The position numbers were made by a program, and so were the translations under genes. From assembly GCA_947502835.1 (NCBI GenBank), contig CANNBJ010000001.1:372001-436000 (forward strand): 64,000 nt of DNA. Reading direction: 5' to 3'. Origin of the DNA: Bdellovibrionales bacterium (GTDB taxonomy: Bacteria > Bdellovibrionota > UBA1018 > CAIMNF01). Every line of letters begins with the position of its first letter. The stretch's first letter is position 1. Positions 12,622 to 45,215 of this stretch are shown piece after piece. The notes beneath the pieces were generated by a model. That model saw only the letters and a list, made by a program, of their open reading frames with translations, was not told the origin of the DNA and ran no database searches.

Positions 12622-14382
12622 TCAAAACTTCATTTCGAGGGATGCGTAGGCCATTCGGCCGGGCAGCGGATAGCCGCGAATCATTTCAATCCGTGAGTCA
12701 AGAAGGTTATCCAAGCCAAGAGTTACAACCAGGTCTCGGCTTGCGTTCATGCTGATTTTCTGTCCGAGGAGCGCATACGCAGGGAGATTGCTGCCATCGA
12801 ATTCTGTGGATCGACCCATCCATTTCGCTTGGGTTTCAAGACTAACCCAATCTTTTGGCATGAGAATCGCCGATCCCCCCGCACTGAAGAAGGGAAGGCG
12901 GGGGTAGGGATTTCCGGATCTAGAGAGGATTGAGTAGCTTGCCAGAACGTCGGCACGAAGGAGGACTCGGGAACTGATGCTAGTGCTGACTGTTTCCGCC
13001 AGACTCAGGAAATGTGCGGTTCCTGCATTTTCCATGGTTCCCGAAGTTGTCGTAATTGGCTTATAAATGATTATCCCGTTCCGGACTTCCGCCCTGATTT
13101 GAGTCTTTGTTTTGAGTCTCGATCCTCGATCCTCAAATCCCGCGATCATTGCGTATACCCTTTCAGGCGAAAGACTTGGATTTCCAGTAAAAAAAGGAGT
13201 CACATAAAGCCGATCCTGAATGCTCGGGAGCTTTGGCAGTGCTTGGGCTTCAACATAAAGATTTTGTTCGGAGGAAAGTGAAGCCTCGCTTGAAATCCTC
13301 GCTCCCGGATGAAAACCAAGGCCGCTCAGGTACTCGGAGGTGGCGGTGGCGCGAATCTCAGTTCCCGACCCTGATTTAAATTTTTGGGTAAAACCAAAAT
13401 GTGCCGGCCATTCAGTATAGGTGCCTGCACTTGCACTTGTGAACTCGACATTTCTTGCTGAGATTGAGAACACAGAGTTCCCCCAGGATAGGGTGTTTTC
13501 CGTGCCGAAAGTGCGGGTCCGATCTGAACTCGGAAAGGGAGAGTCGACAATATCCAGTCGCTGAAAATCACCAAAAACCGTAGACTGAATTAAGATTGTC
13601 TCAGATCCATGAAAGTGGGCCATCAAAGAGGGAATCACTCGAGTTGTTTTCTTAACCGCGTTAGGTGTCGGGAGTGATGTGGAACCAGGGTCTTCCCCCT
13701 TCTGATCGGTTCCGATCACGTTCGCAGTCAGAGTCAGATCGCGGGATTTGAGAAAGCGATAACTCAAGGATCCGGCGGGACCTGTCTGGCGTCCGAAAGT
13801 GTTCCCAGCCAAGATTGAAATATCGGATTTTCGCGTTCCAATCGACACGGTTTGCAAATCCCGGTCCCAGCTCAGAGTGAGCCGGGAGGATTGCTCGGGC
13901 GCGAGCGTGGGGCGAAGAATGGACCAAGACCATGGGGTCAGATCGAGGTTTCCGGATGCGGATTGTTGAATGAAGGCGGCCGATGTGGTCGAAGGTGCGA
14001 TTCGGACCTCGCTCCAAAGAAACGCGGGAAACCCGGAAAGATCGGCCCCACCGCCAATTGCCTGATTGAGCGGCACTCCGAGAGTGGTGACCTGGGTGTC
14101 GTCAATGGACCTTCCTCCGAGGCTGACTCCGTTTGCTCCGGAGGGGTAGCCAAAGTTCTGAAGAGGAAAGAGGGTATTCCATTTCAAGTCGTCGAGCAGG
14201 GTGCTTCTCGAGTTTTCAATCGGAATCACCGTGACCGGAACCAGGGATTCCTCTCGAAGTGTTTCAAAACTTGTTCTTCCTGTGACATTGATCGCAGGAA
14301 GGGTGAACTCAGACTCTTCGGCACTTGCCGCAATCGGGATCAGACACAATCCCATGAGCAAAAGCGCACGCAGGCGGTTCAT
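12622..14382 (-). CDS. TonB-dependent outer-membrane receptor
   Basis: This 586-residue protein has a signal peptide (cleavage near ASAEE) followed by LPAINVTGR, which resembles a TonB box plus the start of the plug. The plug contains GANGVSLGGRSIDDTQVTTL, the usual plug strand pattern. The remaining ~430 residues alternate polar and hydrophobic residues as in a barrel, and the end SLEMKF carries the terminal Phe. The barrel and plug are short for the family, as in vitamin B12-type receptors. The start overlaps the stop of the dehydrogenase gene upstream as ATGA, and that operon lies 24 bp from the two pterin-like genes, so a heterocyclic cofactor precursor is a reasonable guess at cargo. Confidence 0.8.
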   Translation of the reverse strand: MNRLRALLLMGLCLIPIAASAEESEFTLPAINVTGRTSFETLREESLVPVTVIPIENSRSTLLDDLKWNTLFPLQNFGYPSGANGVSLGGRSIDDTQVTTLGVPLNQAIGGGADLSGFPAFLWSEVRIAPSTTSAAFIQQSASGNLDLTPWSWSILRPTLAPEQSSRLTLSWDRDLQTVSIGTRKSDISILAGNTFGRQTGPAGSLSYRFLKSRDLTLTANVIGTDQKGEDPGSTSLPTPNAVKKTTRVIPSLMAHFHGSETILIQSTVFGDFQRLDIVDSPFPSSDRTRTFGTENTLSWGNSVFSISARNVEFTSASAGTYTEWPAHFGFTQKFKSGSGTEIRATATSEYLSGLGFHPGARISSEASLSSEQNLYVEAQALPKLPSIQDRLYVTPFFTGNPSLSPERVYAMIAGFEDRGSRLKTKTQIRAEVRNGIIIYKPITTTSGTMENAGTAHFLSLAETVSTSISSRVLLRADVLASYSILSRSGNPYPRLPFFSAGGSAILMPKDWVSLETQAKWMGRSTEFDGSNLPAYALLGQKISMNASRDLVVTLGLDNLLDSRIEMIRGYPLPGRMAYASLEMKF

Positions 14383-15128
14383 ATATCCCCCTGCAGCGGG
14401 CGAATGGTGAGGATTTCAATCGTGGAGCGCTCGTCCGCGAACAGTGCATTCACCATGGGATTGGCAACGTCCCGTGCCTTCATCATTCGTGATTCCTGTT
14501 CGGGTGTCACCTCACCCCACATGGGGGTCAGTGCAGCACCGGCACGAACATCAAGAATCCGGATTCCATCCTGATACCCATAGCCGCGCATGACCTCGAG
14601 TAGACCTCTTTGCGCATACTTCGACATGCAGTAAATGGAACTGTGAGGGAACGGCCGTTCGGCGGCGACTGAGGTTACCACTTGAATCTGGCCGCGCATC
14701 CCGCGGGAAGGCGGTGCAGCCTTCATCGCGCGATAGGTTTCTTGAAGGAGAAGAAAAGTCGCGCGAACATTGGTGTTCATCGTATCATCGAGGTCCTTCG
14801 CACTGAGTTCGAGGAAGTTTCCGAATCGACCCACTCCCGCGCAATGGATCAGCGCATCAAGCTTCCCGAACCGCGCAAGGGCCCTTTGCACCGGTGCAAT
14901 CGGGTGTTCGGAAAGATCAACATCGACGATTTCCGTTTCAACACCCGCCTTTGTCGCGAGTGTTGCGAGTTCTTCCAGGTCCGGGCGGGTTCTCGAAACC
15001 AGACAAAGCCCCATTTTCTTCCCTGCGGTTGCGGGGTGGGCAAGAAGCGCTTCGACAAAGGCCCTTCCAATTCCTTTCCCGGCTCCGGTGACAATGATGA
15101 CATGATCCTTCATGGGGTGTGATTTCAT
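14379..15128 (-). CDS. Short-chain dehydrogenase, sepiapterin-reductase-like
   Basis: This 249-residue SDR has the nucleotide motif TGAGKGIG (residues 14-21), the NAG-equivalent HCAGVG, the active-site Ser (VVTSVAAE) and the catalytic YxxxK (IYCMSK). TGAGKGIGRAF and the longer loops resemble sepiapterin reductase / benzil reductase members, which use NADPH. The ATG at 15128 is preceded by AGAGGA with suitable spacing and is preferred to the longer open frame. The gene is translationally coupled to the TonB receptor and diverges from two 6-pyruvoyl-tetrahydropterin-synthase-like genes with only 24 bp between starts. Together these suggest pterin-related chemistry, which is inference. Confidence 0.75.
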   Translation of the reverse strand: MKSHPMKDHVIIVTGAGKGIGRAFVEALLAHPATAGKKMGLCLVSRTRPDLEELATLATKAGVETEIVDVDLSEHPIAPVQRALARFGKLDALIHCAGVGRFGNFLELSAKDLDDTMNTNVRATFLLLQETYRAMKAAPPSRGMRGQIQVVTSVAAERPFPHSSIYCMSKYAQRGLLEVMRGYGYQDGIRILDVRAGAALTPMWGEVTPEQESRMMKARDVANPMVNALFADERSTIEILTIRPLQGDI

Positions 15129-32023: not shown

Positions 32024-32539
32024 TCACATTGAGGGGCAGGCAGGAGTTTCCTTGATCTGGGCTTCAAGCTTTGCGGTGAACCGCAGGATGGATTCCGGAT
32101 CAAGTTGCTCCGGAGGGTTCGAGTTCAATTCAGACCGAATGGATTCCAAATCAATTCGGGTCAATGCCTGATCATCGGGGCGGCCGTCGAGCCAGCCATT
32201 TCCCCAGCGCTCCTCTTTGATCTTGAATGGGGAATAAGATCCGATTCTTACTCCCAGATACATCAAAAATGCAATCTCTCGCGCCCCGGTTTGCTCCACA
32301 CAAGAGCGGAGTCGCTTGTCGGCAGAGATTCGATGGTGTTTGCACCCTCCGGCCCAGAAATCAAGGTCATGTTCAATGCAGCAGTGTCTCCATTGATTCG
32401 GATTCGTTTTGGTGCCTGGAGGAAAACCGGTGCAGAGATTCGAATGGAACGGTTTCAGTGAGCTGGCCAGGGCACTGGAAAAGATGAGCAGGGCGGGGAG
32501 AATGGCCCTATTGCATTTGGAAAATGTCATCTCCTCCAT
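32024..32539 (-). CDS. Phospholipase-A2-like exported protein
   Basis: This 171-residue protein has a hydrophobic leader (ILPALLIFSSALAS). A core motif CCIEHD, with His57-Asp58 following a Cys pair, resembles the catalytic CCxxHD of secreted phospholipase A2. LCTGFPPG and the following FWAGGCKH are also family-like, and another Cys (SCVEQ) can pair. GVRIGS and RWGNGW occur later. This supports lipid hydrolysis in the periplasm or outside, but a catalytic Ca-binding loop is not obvious. ATG 32530 is an alternative start; an SD-like GGAGGAG lies directly before it. Confidence 0.65.
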   Translation of the reverse strand: MEEMTFSKCNRAILPALLIFSSALASSLKPFHSNLCTGFPPGTKTNPNQWRHCCIEHDLDFWAGGCKHHRISADKRLRSCVEQTGAREIAFLMYLGVRIGSYSPFKIKEERWGNGWLDGRPDDQALTRIDLESIRSELNSNPPEQLDPESILRFTAKLEAQIKETPACPSM

Positions 32540-32551
32540 TAGAACACTCTT

Positions 32552-33226
32552 GTGGGCCCATTTGAAGAACATTTACGCGACGCAATTTCCCTGAACCAGA
32601 GGCGGATGCCCCTGTATTCGAGGCTTTCAGGTGGGCGCTCCGAGACCATCTCCAAACTGCTCCTTCTTTCCGAGCGGCTCGCGCTTCCTTTTTGCAGCAT
32701 TCCCGATCGATGGTCCAAGCGATTTGTTTTGGCGGGCGTTCCGATTGTGCAGGAAGAGTTCCTCTCCATGGACAAGGTTCCTGAATTCAGTGAGCGATTC
32801 CCGTTTGATCCGGCACCGCTCTCGCAATTCTTGCCCCGGAGTGGAAACAGGATCGCCACGGAGATCTTGAAGGCCTATCGGAATTCAGGGTTCGAAGCGG
32901 CATCCGGACGGGCGAGCAGGGAGCTTGAGTCCCTTGGCAAGGATCTCACTTTTCATCCCATGCTGAGGCATGTGCTGGAGTCCGTGATTCGGGTTGCCAA
33001 CCTTGCCCCGCTCCACGAAAAACGAAGACTTGAATTGTCCATATCAGAGTCAACGATGGGATTGTCAAAGTGGCTTTTTTTCTCCCACTTCAGTGCCTTC
33101 CCTTTCGCAACCTGGATTGATACAAAGGCAGCTCCGCTTCATGCGGAAGGCCTGCCGATCATCTTCCAGGATGTCCCGGGAATTCCGCCGATTTCCAGTT
33201 TCTACCAGGGGCTCAACACTCGCTGA
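32552..33226 (+). CDS. Cytoplasmic protein of unknown function
   Basis: The 224-residue product has no signal peptide and no motif that I can assign. It contains LSGGRSETISKLLLLSERL near the N-terminus and many aromatic and basic residues. The GTG at 32552 has no clear SD, whereas ATG 32606 follows AGAGGCGG and would shorten the protein by 18 residues. It is divergent from the phospholipase-like gene and convergent with the lipid kinase gene, whose end it overlaps by 14 bp. Confidence 0.5.
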   Translation: MGPFEEHLRDAISLNQRRMPLYSRLSGGRSETISKLLLLSERLALPFCSIPDRWSKRFVLAGVPIVQEEFLSMDKVPEFSERFPFDPAPLSQFLPRSGNRIATEILKAYRNSGFEAASGRASRELESLGKDLTFHPMLRHVLESVIRVANLAPLHEKRRLELSISESTMGLSKWLFFSHFSAFPFATWIDTKAAPLHAEGLPIIFQDVPGIPPISSFYQGLNTR

Positions 33227-34124
33227 ACACTTTGAGGCGTTTTGGATGGATTTGGAAGTCGAGGGTTGGCATTGAAGTGAGAATCTCGCCATCTCCGAAT
33301 GCCTGAAGTGCATCGCCGTTCAAGGATTCGATGCGTAAGCGTTTTGTTTTGAACGAGTGGAAGGAGGGGTCGATCTTTCCAAGCTTCATCTTTGCGAGGG
33401 ATTTCAGCGTTCCCGATCCGCATGGATTCCGCTGATACATGACGGTGAACGTTTCCTGATCCGGGGACTGGCCCGGAGCAACTCGAAGGTTTCCCGCCAA
33501 TGTGGATTGATTGCAGACCATCAGGATGGATGTGTGGACGACCTCATTGACTTCATCCGAAATGAGCCTTACCAAATGCCCCTTCCCCCAATTCCGGAAG
33601 ATGGTCCGTGTTGCAAGAAGTGAGTAGATTTCACAATTGAAGCGTTTCGGGAGTGTTTGGATCCAGCGGTAGCGGCTCCGCATCCGGTTGAACTCATCAC
33701 AGACCCTCGAGCCAATTCCAATTCCGGATATGGTGGAAAATGGGATTCCATTCACCTGAAGGACTCGAACCTCCCGAACCGAGTCAGAGAAGAAGAGACG
33801 TTCCATCTGGGAGGGGCTCCCCGTGATTCCATTTTCGGTGGCAAGGTCATTGGCGGTTCCCGAGGGGTAGGGGTAGAGGGGGATGTCATTCTCAAGGAGG
33901 CCCCTGAGTGCATAATTCAATGTGCCATCTCCACCGAATACGACCGCCGCACGAAATTCTTGTGGAGAGAGATTCCGGCATGCCTCGGAGAGATCAAGAG
34001 CGGATTTCGGCAAGGTAGATTGTATGCGAAGCCCTCGCAATTCATTCCTCGCAACCTCTGCAAGATGTTTTGATTCTCCCTGCCCCGAACGCTCATTGAT
34101 CAAGAATGCAATTTCCTGCTCCAT
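33213..34124 (-). CDS. Diacylglycerol/sphingosine kinase-family lipid kinase
   Basis: This 303-residue soluble kinase is of the DagK/YegS type. The ATP-binding motif VVFGGDGTLNYALRGLL (GGDGT at residues 64-68) and the following PSGTANDLA are both diagnostic. SGIGIGSRV and the C-terminal ALQAFGDGE contain the conserved acidic site. It phosphorylates a lipid such as diacylglycerol at the membrane, using ATP. It faces the unknown gene at its 3' end, and its start lies 56 bp from the permease gene. It may be part of the lipid-related neighbourhood. Confidence 0.85.
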   Translation of the reverse strand: MEQEIAFLINERSGQGESKHLAEVARNELRGLRIQSTLPKSALDLSEACRNLSPQEFRAAVVFGGDGTLNYALRGLLENDIPLYPYPSGTANDLATENGITGSPSQMERLFFSDSVREVRVLQVNGIPFSTISGIGIGSRVCDEFNRMRSRYRWIQTLPKRFNCEIYSLLATRTIFRNWGKGHLVRLISDEVNEVVHTSILMVCNQSTLAGNLRVAPGQSPDQETFTVMYQRNPCGSGTLKSLAKMKLGKIDPSFHSFKTKRLRIESLNGDALQAFGDGEILTSMPTLDFQIHPKRLKVFSEC

Positions 34125-34180: not shown

Positions 34181-36766
34181 TCAGGAATCAAGACTTTCCC
34201 GAATCGGCATTCGTGCGGCATGCAAGCCGGGCAGGATCCCCGCGAGGATTCCGACCAGAAGACCAAAAAGATAGGTTTTTCCCACAGACTGCGCGGGGAG
34301 TGAAAATCCCAACACCCACCCCATCAGGCTGGAGATCGTTCCCATGACCCAGAAATAGCAAACAAAGACCGCGATTGCGATGGATGCTACTCCGCCCAGC
34401 ATTCCCTGAAGGATCGACTCGCCAAGGATCATCCGCAAGAGGCCTTTTTGATCCATGCCGATGGCCCTGAGAACACCGAATTCACGCCTCCGATCGAGCA
34501 CGCTCACAAAAACGGTATTGAACAGCCCAAACAGCCCCACCAAAAGAGCCGACCATTCGATGGCCCGGGTGTGCATGAAGCTTTCGTCGACGATCGCTTC
34601 AGCATCCCGATTGAGCTCGGAGTTCATGGTTGCCATCAGTCCCTTGGCTTTTCCGAGGTCGTGATCAAGGCGAGACCGAAGGTCCAGTGGGGAACCCCCC
34701 GGTTTTGCCATCAGGAAAAACCCGCTGACAAGGTCATCAAGATAGAGCTCGCGGTAGGTGTTCCGATTCAGGTAAATCACACCCTCAGGGTTGGTGAACT
34801 CTGCCACCACGCCAAGAATTCGGAACGATCGCAGACCGGTCGGCGTTTCCAAAGACAGCGTGTCTCCTGTCCTTTTTCGAAAATGAAGGACGAAATTCTC
34901 GGAGACCAGCGCTACCGGTGTTTTCGATGTGAAAAATGCGGCACGGACCTCGTCAGGAGCACCGCCTTCCTTTACCTCGATCAGTGAGTTTCGAAGCCTG
35001 GGGTGGGGCGGATCAAAGGCCTTGATGGCAAGAGTGCGTCCCTCGTATTTTTGCTTGATGTATCTGAGTCCTGTTGCGCCGATGCCCTCGCGGACATCGA
35101 CCCCCTCGATCCGGTTCAAATCTTCTCGCAGGCTCTCTTTCAATGGTTGAATCTGAAAACTGAGAAGCTTCCCGGAGGATGAAACCACAAGGTCTGCCGC
35201 AAGAGTGTTTCGAAACCAGGAAAGAACACTCTGTTTGATGCTTCCGTTCAGAATCGAGAGAACCATCACCAGCATCAGTCCGGTCATCAGAGTCATCAAA
35301 TTCGAGGTGGTTCTACTGGAGTTCCGAAGAAGATTTTCGCAGGAAAGCCGGAGTGTGGCAGAGGGAATCACCCTTCGGATTCCATGAAGAAGCCCCCTCA
35401 CAAAGAGCGGGCTCGCCAAGACCGATCCGAAGATGAGGCAAAAAGGGTTTAGATGGCGAATCCATGGAAGCGAATGACTCAGGCCCATTTTTGCGTCCAC
35501 GACGATGAAGCCAAGGAGAAGGACGCCTGCGAGGGGGCTGATCCATCCAGGGGCCGCTGGCCCCGGGATCTGTCCTCGCACAGCCTCCAGGGGTGAAACC
35601 TGAAGTCCCTTTTGCCCCGCGAGCCCCGTTGCAAGAAGAGTCGTCAGTGTTCCAAGGCCGAGCGCCTTTGCCGCCAACTCCGGAGTGAAAACAAGCTCGT
35701 CGACAAAGACGGGAATCAGGTATTGATGGGAGAGGGCCTGGCTGATGAATTTGACCATCCAGATTGCGATGAAACGCCCGAGGATGATTCCGAGAATCGA
35801 GCCCGCAAGTCCGATGATGAATCCCTCTTCGAGAAGGTGTCGCATCAGCATGCCCCGGTCGGCTCCAATGGTTCGAAGGACTCCGAGTTCCCGCCGTCGC
35901 TCTGCAAGCGCGATTGTCATCGAGTTCAGGACTAAAAACAGGCCCACGATCAACGCGAGAGTGCCCACAAAAGAGAGTAGCCCCTGGTATCCTTCCACCA
36001 ATCGGCGCATGTTCCCCGCCTGTGTTGCGGGACTCTCCACGCTCAAGCCCTTGGGAAGCGTGAGGGAAAGCGCGGACTCGATTTCCGCCTGTGTGGTTTC
36101 CGGGCGTGGCAGAATGTCAACCCGGTCAAGCTTTCCCGTCTTTCCGAATTGCAGGCGGGCGGCGTCGATATCCATGATCGCAAGATTTCCACCGTAGGCC
36201 TTTGCCGGGCCTTCAGCAGTCAGAAGGCCTCGAACCACAAAACTCCTCGGTCCGGCAGTGGTTGCAATCTTGAGGGTGTCTCCGTTTTTCAAGTGATGCA
36301 GATCCGCATACTTCCGCGTAAGGATGATGCTGTCGGGTTGATTCAGGAAGCTCAGAGGGTCTTCAATCACTCCGGTCTCTTGCACCCGATAGGCACGAAT
36401 CGAGCTCTCTCTCAGGAGATCCACACCGAGAATCATCAGGGTTTCACTTTTGTTTCCCGAATCATGGGTGGTGTAAGCCTGTGATTCGATCACGGGAACC
36501 GCACTTGCCACTCCTGGCGTTTTCTCGATCTCTTCCAGGACTGTTTCCGGAAACCCCGCAGGGCCCCCCAGGACACTTACTGTGGCACGTCCGCTGATCG
36601 ACTCAATGCCGGATTGGAAACTGAGTAAAGTGGATTCGTTTACCAAGTCGATCGAGGAATACAGGGCCACTCCAAAAGCGATCCCAAGGAGACTCAGCCC
36701 ATTCCTGGATTTTCCCGTTTTCAGGCGTTTGATCGTAAGAATCGAGAGAAGGCCCATTTTTCGCAT
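34181..36766 (-). CDS. ABC transporter permease with two FtsX domains
   Basis: This 861-residue inner-membrane protein has two FtsX-type permease units, each preceded by a large periplasmic domain. Helices lie near 20-40, 265-290, 310-345 and 375-400 in the first half, and near 420-470 and 720-860 in the second. The coupling motifs ERRRELGVLRTIGADRGMLM and DRRREFGVLRAIGMDQKGLL mark the two cytoplasmic loops. Such large YbbP-type permeases usually work with an ATPase to export lipids or hydrophobic compounds, but no ATPase gene is adjacent. It is divergent from the six-gene operon beginning at 36813. Confidence 0.88.
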   Translation of the reverse strand: MRKMGLLSILTIKRLKTGKSRNGLSLLGIAFGVALYSSIDLVNESTLLSFQSGIESISGRATVSVLGGPAGFPETVLEEIEKTPGVASAVPVIESQAYTTHDSGNKSETLMILGVDLLRESSIRAYRVQETGVIEDPLSFLNQPDSIILTRKYADLHHLKNGDTLKIATTAGPRSFVVRGLLTAEGPAKAYGGNLAIMDIDAARLQFGKTGKLDRVDILPRPETTQAEIESALSLTLPKGLSVESPATQAGNMRRLVEGYQGLLSFVGTLALIVGLFLVLNSMTIALAERRRELGVLRTIGADRGMLMRHLLEEGFIIGLAGSILGIILGRFIAIWMVKFISQALSHQYLIPVFVDELVFTPELAAKALGLGTLTTLLATGLAGQKGLQVSPLEAVRGQIPGPAAPGWISPLAGVLLLGFIVVDAKMGLSHSLPWIRHLNPFCLIFGSVLASPLFVRGLLHGIRRVIPSATLRLSCENLLRNSSRTTSNLMTLMTGLMLVMVLSILNGSIKQSVLSWFRNTLAADLVVSSSGKLLSFQIQPLKESLREDLNRIEGVDVREGIGATGLRYIKQKYEGRTLAIKAFDPPHPRLRNSLIEVKEGGAPDEVRAAFFTSKTPVALVSENFVLHFRKRTGDTLSLETPTGLRSFRILGVVAEFTNPEGVIYLNRNTYRELYLDDLVSGFFLMAKPGGSPLDLRSRLDHDLGKAKGLMATMNSELNRDAEAIVDESFMHTRAIEWSALLVGLFGLFNTVFVSVLDRRREFGVLRAIGMDQKGLLRMILGESILQGMLGGVASIAIAVFVCYFWVMGTISSLMGWVLGFSLPAQSVGKTYLFGLLVGILAGILPGLHAARMPIRESLDS

Positions 36767-36812: not shown

Positions 36813-37913
36813 GTGGGATTTGGTTATTTTGATGAGCTCAACTACACACTGGCAAACGAGGATCCGGCCCTTGAGACGGAGGTGTTGTGTCCCTCGCAAG
36901 GGCGGATCGTCGCGGTGGGCGGAAGCGGGGCAAGGATTCTTCCGCTGCTCTCGAAGGCGCCCGGGGAAATCCATATTGTGGATATTTCGAAGGCGCAACT
37001 CGCCCTGTGCGAGCTCCGGATCGAAACCCTGAGAAAACTCACACACGAAGAATTCCTCCGGTTTTGGTATCCTTTGGGCGCAGAGGGCGATCCGGCTCTG
37101 CAAAGGGTCTGGAGAAAAGAGTGTTTCTTGCGAATGAGCCTCGATCCTGTTTCCGCCTCGATCCTGGAGCGGCGGTTTCAAGACCACGACTGGGATGCAA
37201 TCACCCTCACAGGGAAGTGGGAGAAAACCTTCCGGTTTTTTTCCAGGCTTGCCCGTATTTTTCTGGGCGCCGGGGTATTGAGGACGCTTTTTTCCTTCAA
37301 GACCCTTGAAGAGCAGAGAGCTTTTCTTGCCACCGGCTTTCCGCGTACTCGGTTCCGAGCCCTCGTTCGTTTGGCCGGGAGTGCGAAAACCTTCAATGCC
37401 CTTCTGTATCGGGGGAGCTTTCCAAAGAATAATTCGGGAATCCCGTACGTGCGGTATTATGAGAATGCATTCTTCAGATTGTTCTCAAACGGGTTGGCCC
37501 GGGAGAACTTCTTTCTCCAGCTCAGCCTTCTTGGAGGAATCAGGAATCACGAGGCTCTTCCTCTTGAGGCCGATCCGGGGGTGTTCATGGCTGCAAAGGC
37601 TGCCGTCGATCAATCCCGCGTCTTTTTCCATCATGGCGACCTGATCTCGGTACTTGAGGGATTGCGCGAAGTGGACTTTATTTCTTTTTCCAATGTGCCC
37701 GCCTATTTTAGCGGCGACCTCGAGCGCACGTTTCTTGCCCGGATCCGACAATCCTTGAAATCCGGTGCAAAGCTTGTGATCCGGCACTATCTGCATTATC
37801 CGGAGGGATTGGACCGAAGCGGCTACACAAAAGTCACAGGAAAGTACGCGCAAGCCTTGGATCGTGAAAAGGTGCAGATGTACGATCCGGAGATCCTGGA
37901 GTTCGGATTGTGA
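36813..37913 (+). CDS. DUF3419 / BtaA-like S-adenosylmethionine aminocarboxypropyl transferase
   Basis: This 366-residue protein has the DUF3419 N-terminal pattern FDELNYTLANEDP. A SAM-binding segment VAVGGSGARILPLL and IHIVDISKAQLALCELR follow, with later FISFSNVPAYFSGD and the Rossmann end strand. BtaA enzymes move the 3-amino-3-carboxypropyl group of SAM to diacylglycerol to begin betaine-lipid synthesis. This member probably transfers the same group, but to what is not known. It begins at GTG after an in-frame stop at 36801; SD is weak, and TATGAT (36799-36804) is a possible -10. It starts the operon and overlaps the P450 by GTGA. No BtaB-type methyltransferase is present. Confidence 0.78.
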   Translation: MGFGYFDELNYTLANEDPALETEVLCPSQGRIVAVGGSGARILPLLSKAPGEIHIVDISKAQLALCELRIETLRKLTHEEFLRFWYPLGAEGDPALQRVWRKECFLRMSLDPVSASILERRFQDHDWDAITLTGKWEKTFRFFSRLARIFLGAGVLRTLFSFKTLEEQRAFLATGFPRTRFRALVRLAGSAKTFNALLYRGSFPKNNSGIPYVRYYENAFFRLFSNGLARENFFLQLSLLGGIRNHEALPLEADPGVFMAAKAAVDQSRVFFHHGDLISVLEGLREVDFISFSNVPAYFSGDLERTFLARIRQSLKSGAKLVIRHYLHYPEGLDRSGYTKVTGKYAQALDREKVQMYDPEILEFGL

Positions 37914-39265
37914 GACACACTCCTCATGACACACCCGGAATGCCGTTGCTTGGCAATCTTCTTCAATACCGGAAGAACAAGATCGGATTCCTGAGCGCTC
38001 TTCGGGATGACGGACACCAGCTGACCCGGTTCCGGCTTGGCAAACACTCGATCACGCTCCTGAAGAAACCCGAGGATCTGGTCCATGTGGAACATCGAAA
38101 TGCAAAAAACTATCAGAAAGCAACCATGCTTCGCGATCTGGTGGGTGATGGAATCCTGATGAGTGAGGGGGAGAAATGGCGTAAGCAAAGGCGCCTGATC
38201 CAGCCACGATTTCATCCCTCGTCCGTCACAGCCCTTGAGAGCCTGATGAATCAAAGAATTACCGGTTTCCTGCACAGAATGGAGTCGGAAGTGGCGGGAT
38301 CTGAAGGACGCCTTGAGATCGGGCTTCATTTGAAAAAGCTCTCCTTTGAAATCATTCTTCAGGCGCTTTTCGGAGAGGTGGATCAAGGCGATTTCGATGA
38401 GCTCCGGAAGCCCATGGAGTTTGTGAATTCGTTTCTGACCGCGCGTTTCAACGAGCTTGTCCCGCTCCCGCTTTGGGTGCCCCTTCCCAGGTATCTCCGG
38501 TTTCAAAGGGCCAGGGAGGCCATCGATCAAGTGATTCACAGGTACATTGACAGGAAGAGGAAAGCGATTCTGGATCAAAACCCCGGTACAGACCTCTTGA
38601 CCCAGATGATCCTGTCGCGCGATCCGGATAGCGGAGTTGCGATGGACGATCTTCAAATCCGGGATGAAACCGTTTCCATTCTTCTTGCCGGCTTTGAGAC
38701 GACCGGTAATCTTTTGTCATGGATTCTTGTGAATCTCTCCCGAGAGCCCGCTGCGCTCATGCGAGTCAGGGAGGAGATCGATTCAAGCATCGGGAGGCGG
38801 ATTCCGGATGCAAACGACGTACTCGGACTCGCGTATTTCGCGAAAGTGGTGGATGAGACCCTGAGACTCCAGCCTTCGGTCTGGGCATGGACCAAGAGAG
38901 CCGTGGGCGATGATGTTCTTGGCAATGTGAAGATTTCAAAAGGGCAGATTCTGTTTTTGTCGCCCTATCTTGTTCATCGTGATCCGGGAATCTGGGATGA
39001 GCCATCCCGATTCAATCCGGATCGATGGACGGAAGAGACGAAAGAGAAGACAAAAGGAGCATATTTTCCTTTTGGAATGGGGCCGCGTACCTGCGTGGGC
39101 AAGCACTTCGCAGTCCTTGAGGCCAAACTCATCCTGGTGAGGTTTCTTCAGCACTTCGAGTTTCGGATCGGAGAGGAGCAGCTTCCGGAACCGGACTTCC
39201 AGATTACGCTTGGGTTCAAGCGCCCATTGCGGGCTGCGGTTCGGGCAAGAAGGAGTGCTTCGTGA
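37910..39265 (+). CDS. Cytochrome P450
   Basis: This 451-residue soluble haem monooxygenase has the proton-relay motif AGFETTG (260-266), the ExxR pair ETLR (316-319), the PxRF-like FNPDRW (about 368-373) and the haem-ligand loop FGMGPRTCVGKHF with Cys395. No N-terminal membrane anchor is seen. The overall pattern resembles fatty-acid or terpenoid-oxidising CYP families. Electron-transfer partners are not nearby. The GTG start overlaps the previous stop, and the end overlaps the next start as GTGA. It likely oxidises an acyl or prenyl chain of the operon's product. Confidence 0.92.
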   Translation: MRHTPHDTPGMPLLGNLLQYRKNKIGFLSALRDDGHQLTRFRLGKHSITLLKKPEDLVHVEHRNAKNYQKATMLRDLVGDGILMSEGEKWRKQRRLIQPRFHPSSVTALESLMNQRITGFLHRMESEVAGSEGRLEIGLHLKKLSFEIILQALFGEVDQGDFDELRKPMEFVNSFLTARFNELVPLPLWVPLPRYLRFQRAREAIDQVIHRYIDRKRKAILDQNPGTDLLTQMILSRDPDSGVAMDDLQIRDETVSILLAGFETTGNLLSWILVNLSREPAALMRVREEIDSSIGRRIPDANDVLGLAYFAKVVDETLRLQPSVWAWTKRAVGDDVLGNVKISKGQILFLSPYLVHRDPGIWDEPSRFNPDRWTEETKEKTKGAYFPFGMGPRTCVGKHFAVLEAKLILVRFLQHFEFRIGEEQLPEPDFQITLGFKRPLRAAVRARRSAS

Positions 39266-40659
39266 ATTCGATGAATCTCCTTCTTGAGTGCAAGGTGCCT
39301 GCAGGGCAAATGGCCTTCCACCCCTTGGGTGGCACTGCAACAAGTTTCGGCGAGCTGATGGACTGCGCGAAACGAGCCCAAAAGACTTTACTGGATCTCG
39401 GATTCAAGCAGGGGGATGCCGTATTGCTAGCCGACTCTCTCAGCGCCGAGTTCTATGCAGTGGTCATGGCGGCGCTCGGACTCGGGGGCAAGGTGATTCT
39501 TGTGGAACCATTCTTGCCCGTGAGTGAGATCCAGAACATCATTGCTTTGGTTTCCCCCCGGGTCTTCGTCTCCTCTCTCATGGGGCGACTCTGGGGTGGT
39601 CGAGTGAAGGCCATTCGGCAAATTCCCCATTGGCGCTCCTCACGGGGTCTTTGCCGGGAATCCGGGGCGGAAAAAGAACTTGTCGTGGTCCCGGTGGCTC
39701 CGGACGATGCCGCAATCCTTACCTTCACAAGCGGGACCTCAAGCGGGAGATCGAAAGGGGTGGTCCGGAGTCATCGCGGGCTGATTGCACAGAACCACGC
39801 GATCCGGAATGCCGGAGACCTCCATCGGTTCAATGGACCTGATCTTGCGATTTTCGCAAATCTGACCCTTGCAAATCTCGGGATGGGGAGAGGAACGGTA
39901 TTCATTCCACCCGGATGGAAAACAGATCACCTTCGAGAGGTCCGCGATTTGCCCCAAGGGATTGCCCCTGAGACTCTTTCCTGTGGCCCTGCGTTCCTTG
40001 ACCGCTTCATCACAGGCGGGTTCGCCACCCGCTCTTTGAAATCGGTGCATGTCGGAGGGGCGCTCACCGAGTGCGCTCTTTTTGAACGGGCCTTTCGAGC
40101 ACTACCTGATGCCAGATTCCTGCACGTCTATGGGAGCAGCGAGGTCGAGCCGGTTTCCTTTGTCGACGCGAGGGAATCCGTGAGGAAGTCAAAGGACAGG
40201 GGATTTGCGCATGCATTGCTTGCAGGCAAGGTTGTGAATGGCCTTCGGGGGCGTCTGGATGAGAAGACCCTCTGGGTGAGTGGAGAGCATGTGTGTGGTG
40301 AGTATTTGGGGAATCCTGAAGAGAATCTCAAATCGAAAATGAGGGATGAGCAGGGGGTTCTCTGGCATGCCATGGGGGATCGGATGGTGGAAACCGTGGA
40401 AGGACTTTGGTACCAGGGGCGCTCATTCCAACAAACATCGGACTTCGGGCTTGAGCAAAGCATTTACGGGGTTCTGGGCCACACCAATGCATTCCTGTTT
40501 CGTGAGCCGGGGGGAGACCTCGTTCTCTCGGGGGAGAATCTGAGAACGAGAATTTCCGAGATCCGCGCAGGATTTCCTGCCGTGGATCGGATTCAAGAAA
40601 AAAAGATCATACGGGATCGCCGACACAGGGCCCGGATCGATCGGGAGGCGAGTCGATGA
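39262..40659 (+). CDS. AMP-binding (acyl-adenylate/CoA ligase-like) enzyme
   Basis: This 465-residue ANL-superfamily protein has the P-loop LTFTSGTSSGRSKGVV, YGSSEVEPVS in place of YGxTE, GDRMVETVEGLWYQGR as the hinge region, and a short C-terminal subdomain. That subdomain contains RRHRARIDR, where the usual A10 catalytic Lys appears as Arg458. The YGSSE and RRH-rich end are like OleC-type fatty-acid enzymes. If Arg cannot replace Lys, the enzyme might form CoA esters or beta-lactones only weakly, or use a different step. Its start and stop overlap those of adjacent genes. Confidence 0.75.
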   Translation: MNSMNLLLECKVPAGQMAFHPLGGTATSFGELMDCAKRAQKTLLDLGFKQGDAVLLADSLSAEFYAVVMAALGLGGKVILVEPFLPVSEIQNIIALVSPRVFVSSLMGRLWGGRVKAIRQIPHWRSSRGLCRESGAEKELVVVPVAPDDAAILTFTSGTSSGRSKGVVRSHRGLIAQNHAIRNAGDLHRFNGPDLAIFANLTLANLGMGRGTVFIPPGWKTDHLREVRDLPQGIAPETLSCGPAFLDRFITGGFATRSLKSVHVGGALTECALFERAFRALPDARFLHVYGSSEVEPVSFVDARESVRKSKDRGFAHALLAGKVVNGLRGRLDEKTLWVSGEHVCGEYLGNPEENLKSKMRDEQGVLWHAMGDRMVETVEGLWYQGRSFQQTSDFGLEQSIYGVLGHTNAFLFREPGGDLVLSGENLRTRISEIRAGFPAVDRIQEKKIIRDRRHRARIDREASR

Positions 40660-41510
40660 AATCGAGATGGTCCATTTATCTTACAGAGCGTTTTCCGATC
40701 ATCCCCAATGCATTGATTGCAGCGGGGATCACCCTGAGCGCAACGCGCATCGCCGGAAATCCAAACCCGGGTCTGATCCCGCTTGTGATTTCATTCCTGG
40801 GCGGGATGGTATTCCTCGCGCAGATCCGATTCATGGATGAGTACAAGGATTTTGAAAAGGACAAAGTTGCACACCCCGAGCGCCCGCTCCCGCGGGGGCT
40901 CTTCACGCCGGCCGAGTTCGCACGCTTCATCAAGTTGTTCAATCTGGCCATGATCGGGGTTTCGGTGGTGGCGGCTCTTGCAGTGAGCATGTCCTCGGGG
41001 TTTTTCTTTTTGCTTGGTGCTTTGTACCTGCATCTGATGTTCAAGGAATTTTACCTTCGGGATTGGCTGAACGCTCGCCCCTTGCTTTATGCCTTCAGTC
41101 ATCAATGGATCATCATTCCCATGATTGCGTTTGTTTTGGAGTGCTTTACGCCGGGTGCGGTGAAGCATCCTGATTTTCTTCCCTTTGCCGGACTCATGCT
41201 GTTTTCATTTTTTGGATTTGAAGTGGGACGGAAGCTCGACCCTGGAGCGCACCCGGTGTTGAACACGTATCTGCATCGGTATGGGCGTGAGAAGACTGCG
41301 TTTCTCCTTCTGATCCTTCTTGGTCTTGCTCTCAAGTCCGGGGAGGCTCTGGGAGTGTTTGTGGTTCTTGGGCCTCTTTATCTCATCATCCTTGTTTTGC
41401 TTTCCATTCTTTGGTGGGCGCCTCACCGATTCAAATGGATTGAGGGCTTTGTCACCCTGTTTCTCCTGCTTGCCATCTGGGGAATGCCGATCGTTCGGGG
41501 GCTGCAATGA
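40656..41510 (+). CDS. UbiA-superfamily prenyltransferase
   Basis: This 284-residue integral membrane protein has about eight helices. The first Asp-rich motif is RFMDEYKDFEKD, with nearby HPERPLPRG, and a second, FGFEVGRKLDPG, lies near residue 190 as in the E-x-x-RK subgroup. These bind Mg and prenyl diphosphate. Family members attach prenyl groups to aromatic rings or build ether lipids. The acceptor is unknown. It overlaps the ligase end by ATGA and the next gene by ATGA. Confidence 0.85.
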   Translation: MKSRWSIYLTERFPIIPNALIAAGITLSATRIAGNPNPGLIPLVISFLGGMVFLAQIRFMDEYKDFEKDKVAHPERPLPRGLFTPAEFARFIKLFNLAMIGVSVVAALAVSMSSGFFFLLGALYLHLMFKEFYLRDWLNARPLLYAFSHQWIIIPMIAFVLECFTPGAVKHPDFLPFAGLMLFSFFGFEVGRKLDPGAHPVLNTYLHRYGREKTAFLLLILLGLALKSGEALGVFVVLGPLYLIILVLLSILWWAPHRFKWIEGFVTLFLLLAIWGMPIVRGLQ

Positions 41511-44236
41511 GGTTTCTGGACGCACACAGTGATGATCACGATTTCAGGAATTTCGGGGGCGGCAAAGCACGCAACCTTGCAGTTCTGAGCCGCGCCGGAG
41601 TTCCTGTGCCCGGATGGTTCTGCCTCCCCTGGACCTTCCTTGAGAGTTATCTTGAGACCACGGGATTGATGAAAGAGTCTTCCACGCCTCAGGGATTCCC
41701 GGAAATCGAGAAACGGATGGTTGAGGCTTTTGTCTCCATGCCGCTGCCGGCCGCACTTTTGGATTCCATTCGGGAGGAGATCCGTGCCCGGGGCTGGGAC
41801 GGGCAATCCCTCGCAGTCCGTTCAAGCGGGCTCGATGAGGATTCTTCTGAGCATTCGTTCGCCGGTCAATTCTCGAGTTTTTTGCATGTGCAGGGAAAGG
41901 ACGATGTCTCGCTTGCGATTCGCAAGTGTTGGGCGTCCGCGTGGTCGGAACGGGTTCTCCGCTACCGTGTGGAGCGGGGCCTTCCCGCCGGGGGCCAACG
42001 AATGGGTGTGATTGTGCAGCAGATGGTCGGGGCTCGCTCTGCGGGGGTTCTCTTCACCCGGAACCCCACCAATCCCCTGGATCGTGACAGGATCTGGGTC
42101 GATTCCGTGTTCGGCCTTGGGGAGGGTCTGGTGAACGGGGATCTCGTTGCGGATCATTTCGAGGTCGATCGGAACTCCCTTCAGGTCACGAAAAGCGAGA
42201 TCGTGCAAAAGGAGTATCTTTACAGCAAGGATGAGAGAGGCGGAATCCGGAAGGTTCGCATGGACCCCGAGGACGCGAAGATTTCAAGCATCAATCCCGG
42301 GGAGTTGACAGAACTTTGCCGCTCCGCCCTCGTGCTTGAGTCCATTTCAGGCGTTCCGCAGGACATCGAATGGGCAATCGGCGAGGAGGGAGTCCGCTTT
42401 CTGCAAATGCGGCCGGTTACCTCCTTACCTCCGGAGGCGTTTCACGATCCGGCAATCAAGGGGGATGAACCCACACTTTGGGACAATTCCAACATCATTG
42501 AGAGCTATAGCGGCGTCACTTCACCCTTCACCTTCTCCTACGCCAGTCATGCCTATCAGCAGGTGTATCGGCAGTTTGCCGAAATGATGCAGGTGCCGGA
42601 AGCCATCCTGAAAGAGCAGGAGCCGAGATTCCGGAACATGCTCGGTCTGATTCGGGGAAGGATCTACTACAATTTGATCAATTGGTATCAGCTTCTTCTT
42701 TGCATGCCCGGATCCTCAAGCAATCCCTCCTTCATGGAGACCATGATGGGAGTCAAAAAATCCCTCTCTTTGGAGCATCAGAGCATCTTTGATTTCGCAA
42801 AGAAACCGCCTACCTACGGCGCACTCTTCAAAATACGCCTCACTCTGGTCTCGGTGTACCGGTTTCTTCGAAGTGATGCCATCATCGCGGACTTCAAGTT
42901 TCACTTCAACCGTGTGTACGAGGAGGCGAGGAGGCAGGATTTCAGGGCTTGGCCGATCTCACGACAGATCACAGTCTATCTTGAGCTCCAAAGGGAGCTG
43001 CTCCCCCGATGGAAGGCGCCCATTGTAAATGATTTCTTGTGCATGGTTTTCTTCGGGGTACTTAAGAAACTCACTTCCAAATGGATGCAAGGAGAGCCGG
43101 AACCCGAGTCCCTCCAAAACGATCTTTTGTGCGGTCAGGGAGATCTTGAGAGCACTGAACCCACAAAATGCCTGATGAGGATCGCAGGCGAAATCGACCG
43201 GGGTGACACCTCTTTCAGGGCAAAGTTCATCGGGGAGCCGCCGGGAAAGATCTGGGAGGAGCTCCTCGCGGGAGCCAATCCCGAACTCATCACGAAGCTC
43301 AGGGCATTTCTCGATCGCTATGGATTTCGATGCGTCAATGAATTGAAATTCGAAGAGCGGGATCTGAATGATGACCCTGCCTTTGTGATCGGGACCATCG
43401 CGAGCTACATCCGGATGCAGTCGTATTCGATTGAGAAGATGGCAGCGCGCGAGCGACAGATCCGCGAAACCGCGGAGGAGCGGGTCGAAAAACGGCTCTC
43501 CGGGGTGAAAAAAGCATTCTATTTTTGGATTCTCAAACACGCGCGAAAGGCGGTCCGAAATCGCGAGGACCTCCGCTTTGACCGCACCAAGAGTTATGGA
43601 CTGGTACGTCACCTGATGAGGGCTGTCGGTGGGAACATGGTGAAGCTCGGAGTTCTGGAATCCGAGTTCGATATCTTTTACCTGACAGTGGATGAAATCA
43701 TCGCTTTCTCCGAGGGGCGCTTGCCCACCCATTCCCCGAAGGGGATTGTGGACTTGAGGAAGCCTGTCTACGAGGAATACCGGAAGACCCCGGCCCCTCC
43801 CGATCGTTTTGTGACGTTTGGTGCTGTGGGAGCCTCTCTTGCCTATCCCTCCGTCCTTGCCGCTTCGGATCTCCTGGTGAACGAGGCTTCTCCCGGGGAC
43901 GATCCATCTTTGCTTAAGGGCACTCCCTGCTGCCCCGGGGTGATCGAGGGTACGGTAAGGGTCGCCCATGAGTTCAAGGATACGGAAGGCCTTGAGGGAG
44001 AGATCCTGGTCACCTCCAGGACCGATCCGGGCTGGGTGCCCGTCTATCCATCGTGCTCAGGCCTTCTGATCGAGAGGGGGAGTCTTCTCTCGCATTCGGC
44101 TGTGGTTGCCCGTGAACTCGGGCTTCCGACGATTGTCGGCATTTCAGGTGGCCTGATGCAACGACTTAAGTCCGGTCAAAGGGTTCGCATGGATGCCGGG
44201 AAAGGGGAAGTGAGGATTCTCGATGCACATCCGTGA
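41507..44236 (+). CDS. Phosphotransferase of the rifampicin-phosphotransferase / PEP-synthase family
   Basis: This 909-residue enzyme has the three-part plan of RPH. An N-terminal ATP-grasp domain (about 1-310) shows GKARNLAVLSRAGVPVPGW, LAVRSSGLDEDSSEHSFAGQ and DIEWAIGEEGVRFLQMRPVT. A long central domain (about 330-760) is poorly conserved and probably binds substrate. A C-terminal swivelling His domain shows CPGVIEGTVRV and LLSHSAVVARELGLPTIVG with His863. In RPH, the enzyme splits ATP and moves a phosphate to the substrate through phospho-His. It may phosphorylate the operon's product, either as a biosynthetic step or as self-protection. Confidence 0.85.
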   Translation: MRFLDAHSDDHDFRNFGGGKARNLAVLSRAGVPVPGWFCLPWTFLESYLETTGLMKESSTPQGFPEIEKRMVEAFVSMPLPAALLDSIREEIRARGWDGQSLAVRSSGLDEDSSEHSFAGQFSSFLHVQGKDDVSLAIRKCWASAWSERVLRYRVERGLPAGGQRMGVIVQQMVGARSAGVLFTRNPTNPLDRDRIWVDSVFGLGEGLVNGDLVADHFEVDRNSLQVTKSEIVQKEYLYSKDERGGIRKVRMDPEDAKISSINPGELTELCRSALVLESISGVPQDIEWAIGEEGVRFLQMRPVTSLPPEAFHDPAIKGDEPTLWDNSNIIESYSGVTSPFTFSYASHAYQQVYRQFAEMMQVPEAILKEQEPRFRNMLGLIRGRIYYNLINWYQLLLCMPGSSSNPSFMETMMGVKKSLSLEHQSIFDFAKKPPTYGALFKIRLTLVSVYRFLRSDAIIADFKFHFNRVYEEARRQDFRAWPISRQITVYLELQRELLPRWKAPIVNDFLCMVFFGVLKKLTSKWMQGEPEPESLQNDLLCGQGDLESTEPTKCLMRIAGEIDRGDTSFRAKFIGEPPGKIWEELLAGANPELITKLRAFLDRYGFRCVNELKFEERDLNDDPAFVIGTIASYIRMQSYSIEKMAARERQIRETAEERVEKRLSGVKKAFYFWILKHARKAVRNREDLRFDRTKSYGLVRHLMRAVGGNMVKLGVLESEFDIFYLTVDEIIAFSEGRLPTHSPKGIVDLRKPVYEEYRKTPAPPDRFVTFGAVGASLAYPSVLAASDLLVNEASPGDDPSLLKGTPCCPGVIEGTVRVAHEFKDTEGLEGEILVTSRTDPGWVPVYPSCSGLLIERGSLLSHSAVVARELGLPTIVGISGGLMQRLKSGQRVRMDAGKGEVRILDAHP

Positions 44237-45215
44237 ACTCGACCATCAGGAATCTGTGGAGGTTTTCCCTCACAACGAAGGAGAGCGGGAGTTGATTGCG
44301 TACCCCTTCGACTTTGATCGGGCCCACTTCATCGCACTCGAGGATGGGCGAAGGATCGGCAGGATTTCGGCAAACACATCGAAACGTGATCCCGGGCGTG
44401 GTTATTTTGGTTTTTTTCATGTTGAGGAAACGGGTCTTTCCGAGTCGGAGGACGCCTGTGCGAGGGCGCTTCTTTCCTATGCGGAATCCTGGCTCAGAGG
44501 AAAAGGGGCAAGCCATATCGTTGGTCCTGTCAATTATTCAACCCTCTTTGACTACCGCATTCGGCTTGATCCGGAGGAGGGTGATTCAGGCAAGGAACCG
44601 TTTTTTTGGGAGCCTTCGGGATCTCCGAGGTCACGCGTCTGGTTCGAAAGAGAGGGCTACCAAGTCTTCGAGGAATACCATTCATGTGCCTACCGCAATG
44701 TGGAGCGAGTGCTTCCCGTCTCTGAAAAACGTTATGAGGAGGCCATACGCTCAGGATTTTCCACGCGCCCCATCCGGTTCACCGGCGGAAATTCTCCCGA
44801 TCTCGAGATTCTCTTTCGAATCAATTCGAGGGCATTTCAGGATTCCTTTCTTGCGGAGCCATTTGATCTTGATGCCTACAGGACCTTGAATGTTCCAAAA
44901 TACACGAAGCTGCTTTCTGATTTCAGCTTCTTCATCCTGAATCCGGAGGGCCGGGAGGTGGGGTATTTCTTCCTTTTTCCGGATCGCGAATCCCTGGTTT
45001 GGAAGACGCTCGCCCTTTTCCCTGAATACCAGAAGGCGGGCTTGGCCGGATTTGGCATTCATCATGCGCTCAAGCTCGCTTTGGATCGGGGGATCTCAAG
45101 TGTGGTCTCCGCACTGATCCGGCGCGGGGCTCCGAGCGAGGCACTCCTCTCCAGGGCTGCGCCGCTCAAGGCGTGGGAGCGGCGATACGGGGTATTTAGA
45201 AAGACTCTCGGTTGA
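44223..45215 (+). CDS. GNAT-fold acyltransferase-like protein
   Basis: This 330-residue protein appears to have two GNAT-like halves. The first has RRIGRISANTSKRDPGRGYFGFFHVEE and ASHIVGPVNYS; the second has SRAFQDSFLAEPFD and LALFPEYQKAGLAGFGIHHAL, which matches the CoA pyrophosphate-binding loop region. It probably transfers an acyl group to an amine or hydroxyl, in the cytoplasm. It overlaps the phosphotransferase gene by 14 bp and is the last gene of the operon. It converges with, and overlaps by 20 bp, an SGNH hydrolase gene. Confidence 0.72.
   Translation: MHIRELDHQESVEVFPHNEGERELIAYPFDFDRAHFIALEDGRRIGRISANTSKRDPGRGYFGFFHVEETGLSESEDACARALLSYAESWLRGKGASHIVGPVNYSTLFDYRIRLDPEEGDSGKEPFFWEPSGSPRSRVWFEREGYQVFEEYHSCAYRNVERVLPVSEKRYEEAIRSGFSTRPIRFTGGNSPDLEILFRINSRAFQDSFLAEPFDLDAYRTLNVPKYTKLLSDFSFFILNPEGREVGYFFLFPDRESLVWKTLALFPEYQKAGLAGFGIHHALKLALDRGISSVVSALIRRGAPSEALLSRAAPLKAWERRYGVFRKTLG

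Follow-up and report, generated by a model that had tools for sequence, protein, structure and literature searches.

A conserved Bdellovibrionota operon with exchangeable cassettes and a possible role in aminocarboxypropyl lipid synthesis

Which compound would be made by a locus that combines a BtaA-like (DUF3419) enzyme, a cytochrome P450, an AMP-ligase-like protein, a UbiA-superfamily transferase, a dikinase and a GNAT protein? The six genes lie in the window, which is the whole analysed stretch of 64,000 nucleotides from a Bdellovibrionales bacterium. According to the ORF calls for positions 36813-45215, they overlap successively by 4, 4, 4, 4, and 14 bases (Table 1). They constitute one operon, a status based on the gene overlaps and on conserved linkage; matches to consensus promoters and terminators in a scan of the operon were not above those in shuffled sequence. 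The original prediction of six overlapping genes of named families is confirmed by the ORFs and by Pfam matches, the scores of the operon domains exceeding the curated cut-offs with some exceptions. Two of its labels were refined, in that the GNAT protein is a tandem GNAT and the middle domain of the "RPH-like" protein cannot be aligned to rifampin phosphotransferase (RPH). The GC content of the operon resembles that of the window, and synteny with a related locus (L024) continues on both flanks, by which a recent genomic island is ruled out.

Table 1. Genes of the operon and the two genes upstream of it
Feature	Length (aa)	Coordinates	Strand	Domain match
YegS/DAG-kinase-type lipid kinase	303	33213..34124	-	PF00781, E=2e-16
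Double LolC/E-like (FtsX/MacB) permease, divergent	861	34181..36766	-	PF02687 + PF12704
BtaA-like (DUF3419) SAM 3-amino-3-carboxypropyl transferase homologue	366	36813..37913	+	PF11899, E=4.5e-34
Cytochrome P450	451	37910..39265	+	PF00067, E=1.6e-82
AMP-ligase-like protein, short form	465	39262..40659	+	PF00501, E=2.4e-28
UbiA-superfamily membrane transferase	284	40656..41510	+	PF01040, E=4.7e-13
Rph/PEP-synthase-like dikinase (PPS)	909	41507..44236	+	PPDK_N, 6e-64; PEP-utilizers, 5.5e-19
Tandem-GNAT N-acyltransferase	330	44223..45215	+	PF00583 (Acetyltransf_1), E=1.8e-7

The survey of related loci covered one phylum, the Bdellovibrionota, plus plasmids. Homologues of BtaA and PPS are found together in 109 of 369 Bdellovibrionota genomes, BtaA only in 10, PPS only in 2, and neither in 248 (Fisher p=7e-79, uncorrected for relatedness). 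Several of the 10 BtaA-only genomes are fragmented assemblies. Linkage in neighbouring genomes, on which the original prediction had staked itself, was observed: of the 79 BtaA-PPS pairs residing on one contig, 78 are separated by at most 12.4 kb. Full loci (n=47) include UbiA in 45 cases, the AMP ligase in 44, and an acyl-ACP-reductase-like protein in 37. Since the gene set remains linked across a phylum, it is not a product of chance, and it is strongly supported that the genes form one co-evolving pathway. A five-enzyme core of BtaA, PPS, UbiA, AMP ligase, and GNAT recurs in an alphaproteobacterium, namely, on a Roseinatronobacter plasmid with the gene order UbiA-PPS-DUF3419-unknown-GNAT-AMP ligase. 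For the unknown protein of 439 amino acids, motifs suggested a phytol/dolichol kinase, a reading for which Pfam and NCBIfam gave no support.

Beyond what could be seen from the window, comparison of the loci shows two alternative cassettes, of which the operon represents one. The type I cassette consists of a formyltransferase, an alpha/beta-hydrolase, which accompanies the formyltransferase at all formyl loci, and a long AMP ligase; the type II cassette consists of a GNAT protein and a short AMP ligase, with or without a P450. The window operon is of type II, with P450. Among 52 loci, 21 contain the formyltransferase and 24 the GNAT gene, and none contains both (p=7.7e-9). The optional P450, which has CYP102 and CYP97 types among its PDB relatives, is restricted to the GNAT-type cassette and never occurs with the formyltransferase. 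In the UbiA tree the cassette types need 1 change, and in the PPS tree type I and type II form separate clades, a few long-branch rows excepted. The BtaA tree, which mostly follows taxonomy, needs 9 changes for cassette types and 6 for family labels; it includes four independent type switches on well-supported branches, each exchanging formyl for GNAT, a number too small for p<0.05 in a sign test. As the BtaA tree mostly tracks taxonomy and the PPS and UbiA clades are cassette-specific, the whole cassette was exchanged beneath BtaA. This points to the cassettes as alternative means of N-capping an amine, most simply that of a BtaA-added aminocarboxypropyl group.

The predicted donor of this group is the BtaA homologue, which passes the DUF3419 cut-off with 118.7 bits versus 28.2. 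Its AF2 model (pLDDT 90) gave weak Foldseek matches, mainly to SAM methyltransferase folds, with 6ulo as the best (E=1e-3) and no confident PDB neighbour; among solved structures no sequence match was found for either the BtaA homologue or the GNAT protein. Compared with rhizobial DUF3419 proteins, the homologues (alignment of 17 members) show only about 20-24% identity, and for that reason diacylglycerol is possibly not the acceptor. A more similar DUF3419 protein (37%) occurs in Deefgea, where the neighbours are non-lipid genes. In the BtaA/BtaB pathway for betaine lipids (DGTS) of rhizobia, a DUF3419 enzyme is likewise predicted to transfer aminocarboxypropyl from SAM. Membership in this enzyme family is what speaks for the locus yielding only DGTS or its precursor DGHS. 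However, an N-acyl or N-formyl transferase, UbiA, the dikinase, and the AMP ligase stand here in place of the BtaB methyltransferase, no methyltransferase being encoded by the operon, by the two genes upstream of it, or by the genes that recur at related loci. By comparison, a SAM methyltransferase lies beside DUF3419 in Rhizobium and beside a DUF3419 match in Sinorhizobium. With five further co-evolving enzymes left unexplained, the DGTS/DGHS explanation is highly improbable.

The dikinase is composed of an ATP-grasp domain, a unique middle domain, and a phosphohistidine swivel domain at the protein end. His863 of its SLLSHSA motif aligns to the RPH His domain and is conserved in 52 of 52 relatives; the middle domain is highly conserved inside the new family. 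In Pfam only PPDK_N and PEP-utilizers were matched, and not the C-terminal PEP/pyruvate-binding domain of PEP synthase. The ATP-grasp and phosphohistidine domains with the catalytic His are shared with Rph and with the prodigiosin ligases PigC/RedH, but the scores fall far below the family cut-offs (295.6 bits versus 999 for rifampin phosphotransferase; 306.8 versus 1300 and 362 versus 1350 for the curated PigC/RedH models), and the middle (substrate) domain cannot be aligned to that of Rph. In most relatives the gene next to BtaA encodes a protein with the domain of cyanobacterial acyl-ACP reductase and PigE, which differs from these by an N-terminal extension of about 340 amino acids lacking a Pfam match. 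No match to it was found in the window genome, whose lineage appears to have lost the reductase.

From these relationships the main rival to a lipid product arises, namely, a small molecule that is secreted or stays with the cell (pigment, antibiotic, signal, or metallophore). PPS would link two halves in the manner of PigC, the reductase would provide a fatty aldehyde, the role presumed for PigE, and BtaA would alkylate a non-lipid acceptor. The nearest named families of PPS and reductase are indeed prodigiosin and rifampin enzymes of small-molecule chemistry, and more distant PPS-UbiA pairs lie in PKS-like clusters that also include AfsA, ICMT, and P450; a Streptomyces plasmid has PPS with the same three partners. 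A Rhizobium plasmid carries DUF3419 beside KAS III, an MBL fold, and an AMP-ligase-like gene, and one type II locus contains an MFS exporter gene. On the other hand, presence in about 30% of the phylum together with a mostly taxonomic BtaA tree fits a membrane component better than a typical secondary metabolite, and lipids and lipoproteins are what YegS and LolCE/LolA-like export parts usually serve. The small-molecule explanation is plausible, though on balance doubtful.

In UbiA, the first Asp-rich motif is present as DExKDxxxD, with D61, E62, K64, D65, and D69 invariant in the alignment; the second is absent, and ExxRK stands in its place in nearly all relatives. The genome has two UbiA genes, the operon copy diverging from the copy at C1:25916. 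The single PDB match of the UbiA profile is the archaeal digeranylgeranylglyceryl phosphate (DGGGP) synthase (weak, E=3e-4). This match, together with the acyl-ACP reductase and the FAR/epimerase-like genes that relatives carry, would fit an ether-lipid pathway functionally akin to the Elb operon of Myxococcus xanthus, in which NAD-epimerase and FAR/ACS-type functions and the multidomain protein ElbD are found (PMC9131029). The reductase would yield a fatty aldehyde or alcohol, the dikinase and YegS would phosphorylate, and UbiA would form the ether bond as DGGGP synthase does. Both would be lipid operons of predatory bacteria, but an ElbD-like multidomain protein is absent from the recurrent genes, and DUF3419, UbiA, and a dikinase are unmentioned for Elb (PMC9131029). 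Identity with the Elb/OPES operon is rejected by the mismatched gene content. As an aldehyde-forming enzyme of this kind was not found in the window genome and the UbiA match is weak, such an ether-lipid pathway is improbable.

The AMP-ligase-like protein is nearest to the NCBIfam models PRK09274/OleC, far under the cut-off. Its C-terminal motif is RHRAR (Arg) in the short form versus RHHSK (Lys) in the long form, and one residue is inserted in the nucleotide loop TSGTSSGRSKG; with the usual Lys absent and an aberrant loop, activity is doubtful. The likeness to the Ole system (OleB, OleC, OleD) extends, in type I relatives, to a fused or adjacent alpha/beta-hydrolase and a weakly OleD-like epimerase, both of which the window lacks. 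OleA thiolase was found neither in the operon nor among the recurrent locus genes, and identity with the OleC beta-lactone synthetase is rejected (48.8 versus a cut-off of 900; type I relative, 224.5 versus 900). Membership tests placed the operon outside the canonical systems for betaine lipids, olefins, prodigiosin, and rifampin phosphotransfer, and Lipocone operons, compared for overlap, are unrelated. The original expectation that no known pathway has all six genes agrees with the open-access literature, in which no description of such a locus was found, which is not proof of absence.

There is about an even chance that the operon is one version of a conserved Bdellovibrionota locus that makes an aminocarboxypropyl ("homoserine-type") lipid or an amphiphile resembling one. 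The best reading, held with equally balanced confidence, is a homoserine-type lipid that is N-acylated and exported through Lol-like parts, its chemistry and identity deduced from the genes; we infer all reactions, the sequence in which they occur, and that the acceptor is a lipid. The BtaA homologue would transfer 3-amino-3-carboxypropyl from SAM to a lipid hydroxyl. In type II the tandem GNAT is predicted to cap the free amine, a step that a folate-dependent formyltransferase would take over in type I. Two GNAT-like halves are recognizable in the AF2 secondary structure (pLDDT 88), and the best Foldseek matches are tandem GNATs. The Rph-like dikinase (ATP to AMP and Pi via phosphohistidine), UbiA, and the AMP-ligase-like protein would activate and join another chain or head group, the P450 would hydroxylate the chain in some lineages, and YegS would phosphorylate a lipid alcohol. 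Acyl-ACP-reductase/PigE-like and NAD-epimerase genes, present in most relatives, suggest a fatty-acyl input. Eventually, the LolC/E-like permease, a predicted export or membrane-transfer component, would pass the product with a LolA-like carrier toward the outer membrane. Of the pathway originally proposed, the single linked pathway stands; prenylation and phosphorylation stay conjectural, the second UbiA motif being altered and the DGGGP synthase match weak.

The BtaA-PPS linkage, the recurrence of UbiA, AMP ligase, reductase, and YegS, the mutually exclusive cassettes, the Roseinatronobacter operon, and LolCE/ABC/LolA-like genes at many loci all favour the proposed lipid-type locus. Against it stand the low identity to rhizobial DUF3419 proteins, the Deefgea neighbourhood, the small-molecule affinities of PPS and reductase, the loss of the latter in the window lineage, the doubtful AMP ligase, and the small number of type switches. 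If a lipid is made, roughly one in three of the Bdellovibrionota genomes sampled would encode an amphiphile for which no description was found here, and which could serve as a lipid marker for the phylum. A likely role would be provided for a dikinase subfamily annotated "phosphoenolpyruvate synthase" and for an odd UbiA subfamily. The two-cassette pattern translates into testable chemistry, with N-formyl in type I, N-acyl in type II, and a common methionine-derived C4 unit. It is a more speculative and rather unlikely extension that an N-formylated or N-acylated aminocarboxypropyl lipid forms a new outer-membrane or cell-surface class made by much of the Bdellovibrionota, in which the exchangeable last-enzyme cassette sets the head-group chemistry like a lipid serotype switch.

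The upstream lipid kinase and permease had been suspected of belonging to the operon; this is supported by YegS in 35 and the LolC/E-like permease in 20 of the 47 full loci (slices of at most 20 kb). The permease is retained in most genus members, and the gap of 46 bp between it and the BtaA start is identical, as is its position, in two relatives (L023 and L024). A contig scan for related loci yielded one relative, a Bdellovibrionales MAG.

The operon comprises six ORFs with successive overlaps of 4, 4, 4, 4 and 14 bases, and these match, in order, the Pfam families DUF3419, P450, AMP-binding, UbiA, PPDK_N plus PEP-utilizers, and Acetyltransf_1; the six overlapping genes of the original prediction are thereby borne out. 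A double FtsX/MacB permease gene (at 46 bp) and a YegS-type kinase gene lie upstream in divergent orientation. The GC content of the operon resembles that of its surroundings. In a scan against NCBIfam, none of the operon proteins reached a curated cut-off, the best score of the dikinase being 862 bits against a cut-off of 883 (PRK06241.2-2, "phosphoenolpyruvate synthase").

Features and their coordinates in the window and in related loci
Source	Positions	Strand	Feature	Remark
Window	36813-45215	+	Six-gene operon	
Window	36813-37913	+	DUF3419 homologue (BtaA)	
Window	41507-44236	+	Rph-like dikinase (PPS)	
Window	32024-32572	-	Small protein	No Pfam match; conserved close to the YegS kinase in six members of the genus
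L144 (relative)	2533-3699		MFS exporter gene, type II locus	Between P450 and UbiA, the usual AMP ligase place
L040 (relative)	12941-15073		Acyl-ACP-reductase-like protein	

The genome carrying the operon (2.73 Mb) is 98% complete. A BtaA homologue is present in 8 of the 12 genomes of the genus, and that of one Bdellovibrionales MAG is 70% identical to the protein of the window. Of 369 genomes of the phylum Bdellovibrionota, 109 have strong homologues of both BtaA and PPS, 10 only of BtaA, 2 only of PPS and 248 of neither (Fisher p=7e-79, which ignores relatedness and is hence overstated). More telling is the close linkage, which held in neighbouring genomes: 78 of the 79 pairs on a common contig are at most 12.4 kb apart, the sole exception being one genome with the two modules separated by 1.16 Mb. 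The accompanying genes were counted in 47 loci containing both; with genes in relatives called as the longest ORF and slices of at most 20 kb, so that the counts are lower bounds, UbiA is found in 45 and the AMP ligase in 44 of them, while 37 have an acyl-ACP-reductase-like protein; YegS and an NAD-epimerase are found in 35 each, a LolC/E-like permease in 20 and a LolA-like protein in 19. Gene order, permease and kinase included, is conserved across the genus wherever contigs are long enough, in agreement with the earlier suggestion that both belong to the system. In three genus members (L027, L028, L030) a ceramidase-family gene (PF05875), absent from the window, lies between permease and kinase. 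The CCxxHD motif in one relative's copy of the small protein recalls phospholipase A2. One assembly (L039, G043) has its BtaA homologue as two separate ORFs, owing to a frameshift or assembly error.

Two alternative cassettes occur at the loci, either formyltransferase, alpha/beta-hydrolase and a long AMP ligase (type I) or GNAT and a short AMP ligase, with or without P450 (type II, as in the window). A strong PPS is present in 52 loci, of which 21 contain the formyltransferase, 24 the GNAT and none both (p=7.7e-9, uncorrected for relatedness). The hydrolase, often fused to the AMP ligase, is found in all 21 formyltransferase loci, and P450 is restricted to loci lacking that enzyme. The long AMP ligase carries a C-terminal motif of the RHHSK type, the short form nearly always RHRAR or RHRSR. 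In trees of a quick kind, PPS forms one clade for each type, a few long-branch rows excepted, and UbiA requires only one change of type; BtaA requires at least nine changes of type versus only six of family (for eleven loci truncated at the end of a contig or slice, the type used in the BtaA and UbiA trees was assigned from the PPS clade or the genes present). Sister BtaA proteins of a single genus can belong to loci of different type, L144 having the type II cassette and L147 that of type I. Well-supported BtaA branches hold four independent switches, in each of which formyltransferase is exchanged for GNAT, too few for significance (sign test p=0.125). Our reading is that BtaA and its neighbours would make a common scaffold and that the finishing cassette is exchanged whole. 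That two unrelated amine-acylating enzymes exclude each other, in loci that are otherwise equivalent, suggests that a single amine is capped in alternative ways; such an amine would be supplied by the aminocarboxypropyl group of BtaA.

The dikinase aligns to rifampin phosphotransferase (RPH) over profile residues 14-311 and 557-908; the intervening 245 residues do not align and are very conserved within the dikinase family. Its phosphohistidine is kept in 52 of 52 relatives. The products of RPH are phospho-rifampin, AMP and Pi (PMC4844700). UbiA retains the first Asp-rich motif, has ExxRK instead of the second, and matches only archaeal DGGGP synthase in the PDB (E=3e-4). The GNAT protein consists of two GNAT-like halves in tandem (pLDDT 88), with structural matches to 3tt2, 2wpw and MshD. 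In the window, the AMP ligase has a nucleotide loop lengthened by one residue, and its activity may be weak or altered. The reductase of relatives matches PigE and cyanobacterial acyl-ACP reductase; its gene was not found in the genome of the window, so it would be either dispensable for the pathway or replaced. These proteins carry an N-terminal extension of ~340 residues, conserved phylum-wide and without a Pfam match.

An aminocarboxypropyl lipid with a capped amine, exported by Lol-like parts, is the most likely product, at about even chances. The main rival, a small molecule, is a lesser though serious possibility because the dikinase and the reductase are closest to prodigiosin enzymes, more distant PPS-UbiA pairs lie within PKS-like clusters, and PPS occurs with AfsA, ICMT, P450 and KAS III on a Streptomyces plasmid. 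The distant pairs (L156, L157 and L158, from G136, G145 and G172) lack BtaA and adjoin ACP-KR, KS-AfsA hotdog, two ICMT-like methyltransferases, NAD-epimerase and P450; the plasmid set, from Streptomyces durmitorensis (L168), reads AfsA-ICMT-nitroreductase-PPS-P450-KAS III. Canonical DGTS is very improbable. In Rhizobium leguminosarum DUF3419 is followed by a SAM methyltransferase, and in Sinorhizobium the methyltransferase comes directly after the DUF3419 match, which we take to be the canonical BtaA/BtaB arrangement.

The enzyme families are all known; their combination and the cassette switch are new to us, and the product is presumably new. Searches of an open-access full-text collection found no account of the gene set, which is consistent with the earlier claim that no described pathway has all six genes but, within that scope, is not proof of it.

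Outside the phylum, a plasmid operon of Roseinatronobacter sp. S2 (Alphaproteobacteria) encodes UbiA, a PEP/pyruvate-binding protein, DUF3419, a 439-aa protein of unknown function, a hypothetical 281-aa protein and an AMP-binding protein. Its dikinase matches the PPS profile (3e-185) and the 281-aa protein the GNAT profile built here (5e-31), so that BtaA, PPS, UbiA, AMP ligase and GNAT are together again in a second phylum. A Rhizobium plasmid (CP041205.1, L170) clusters DUF3419 with KAS III, an NAD(P)-dependent oxidoreductase, an MBL-fold hydrolase and a "CoF synthetase", which is another undescribed DUF3419 context. On a Deefgea piscis plasmid (L165), a DUF3419 protein with 37% identity to that of the window adjoins an iron-containing redox enzyme family protein, SAM decarboxylase and an ABM-type monooxygenase, with SbnA/SbnB near.
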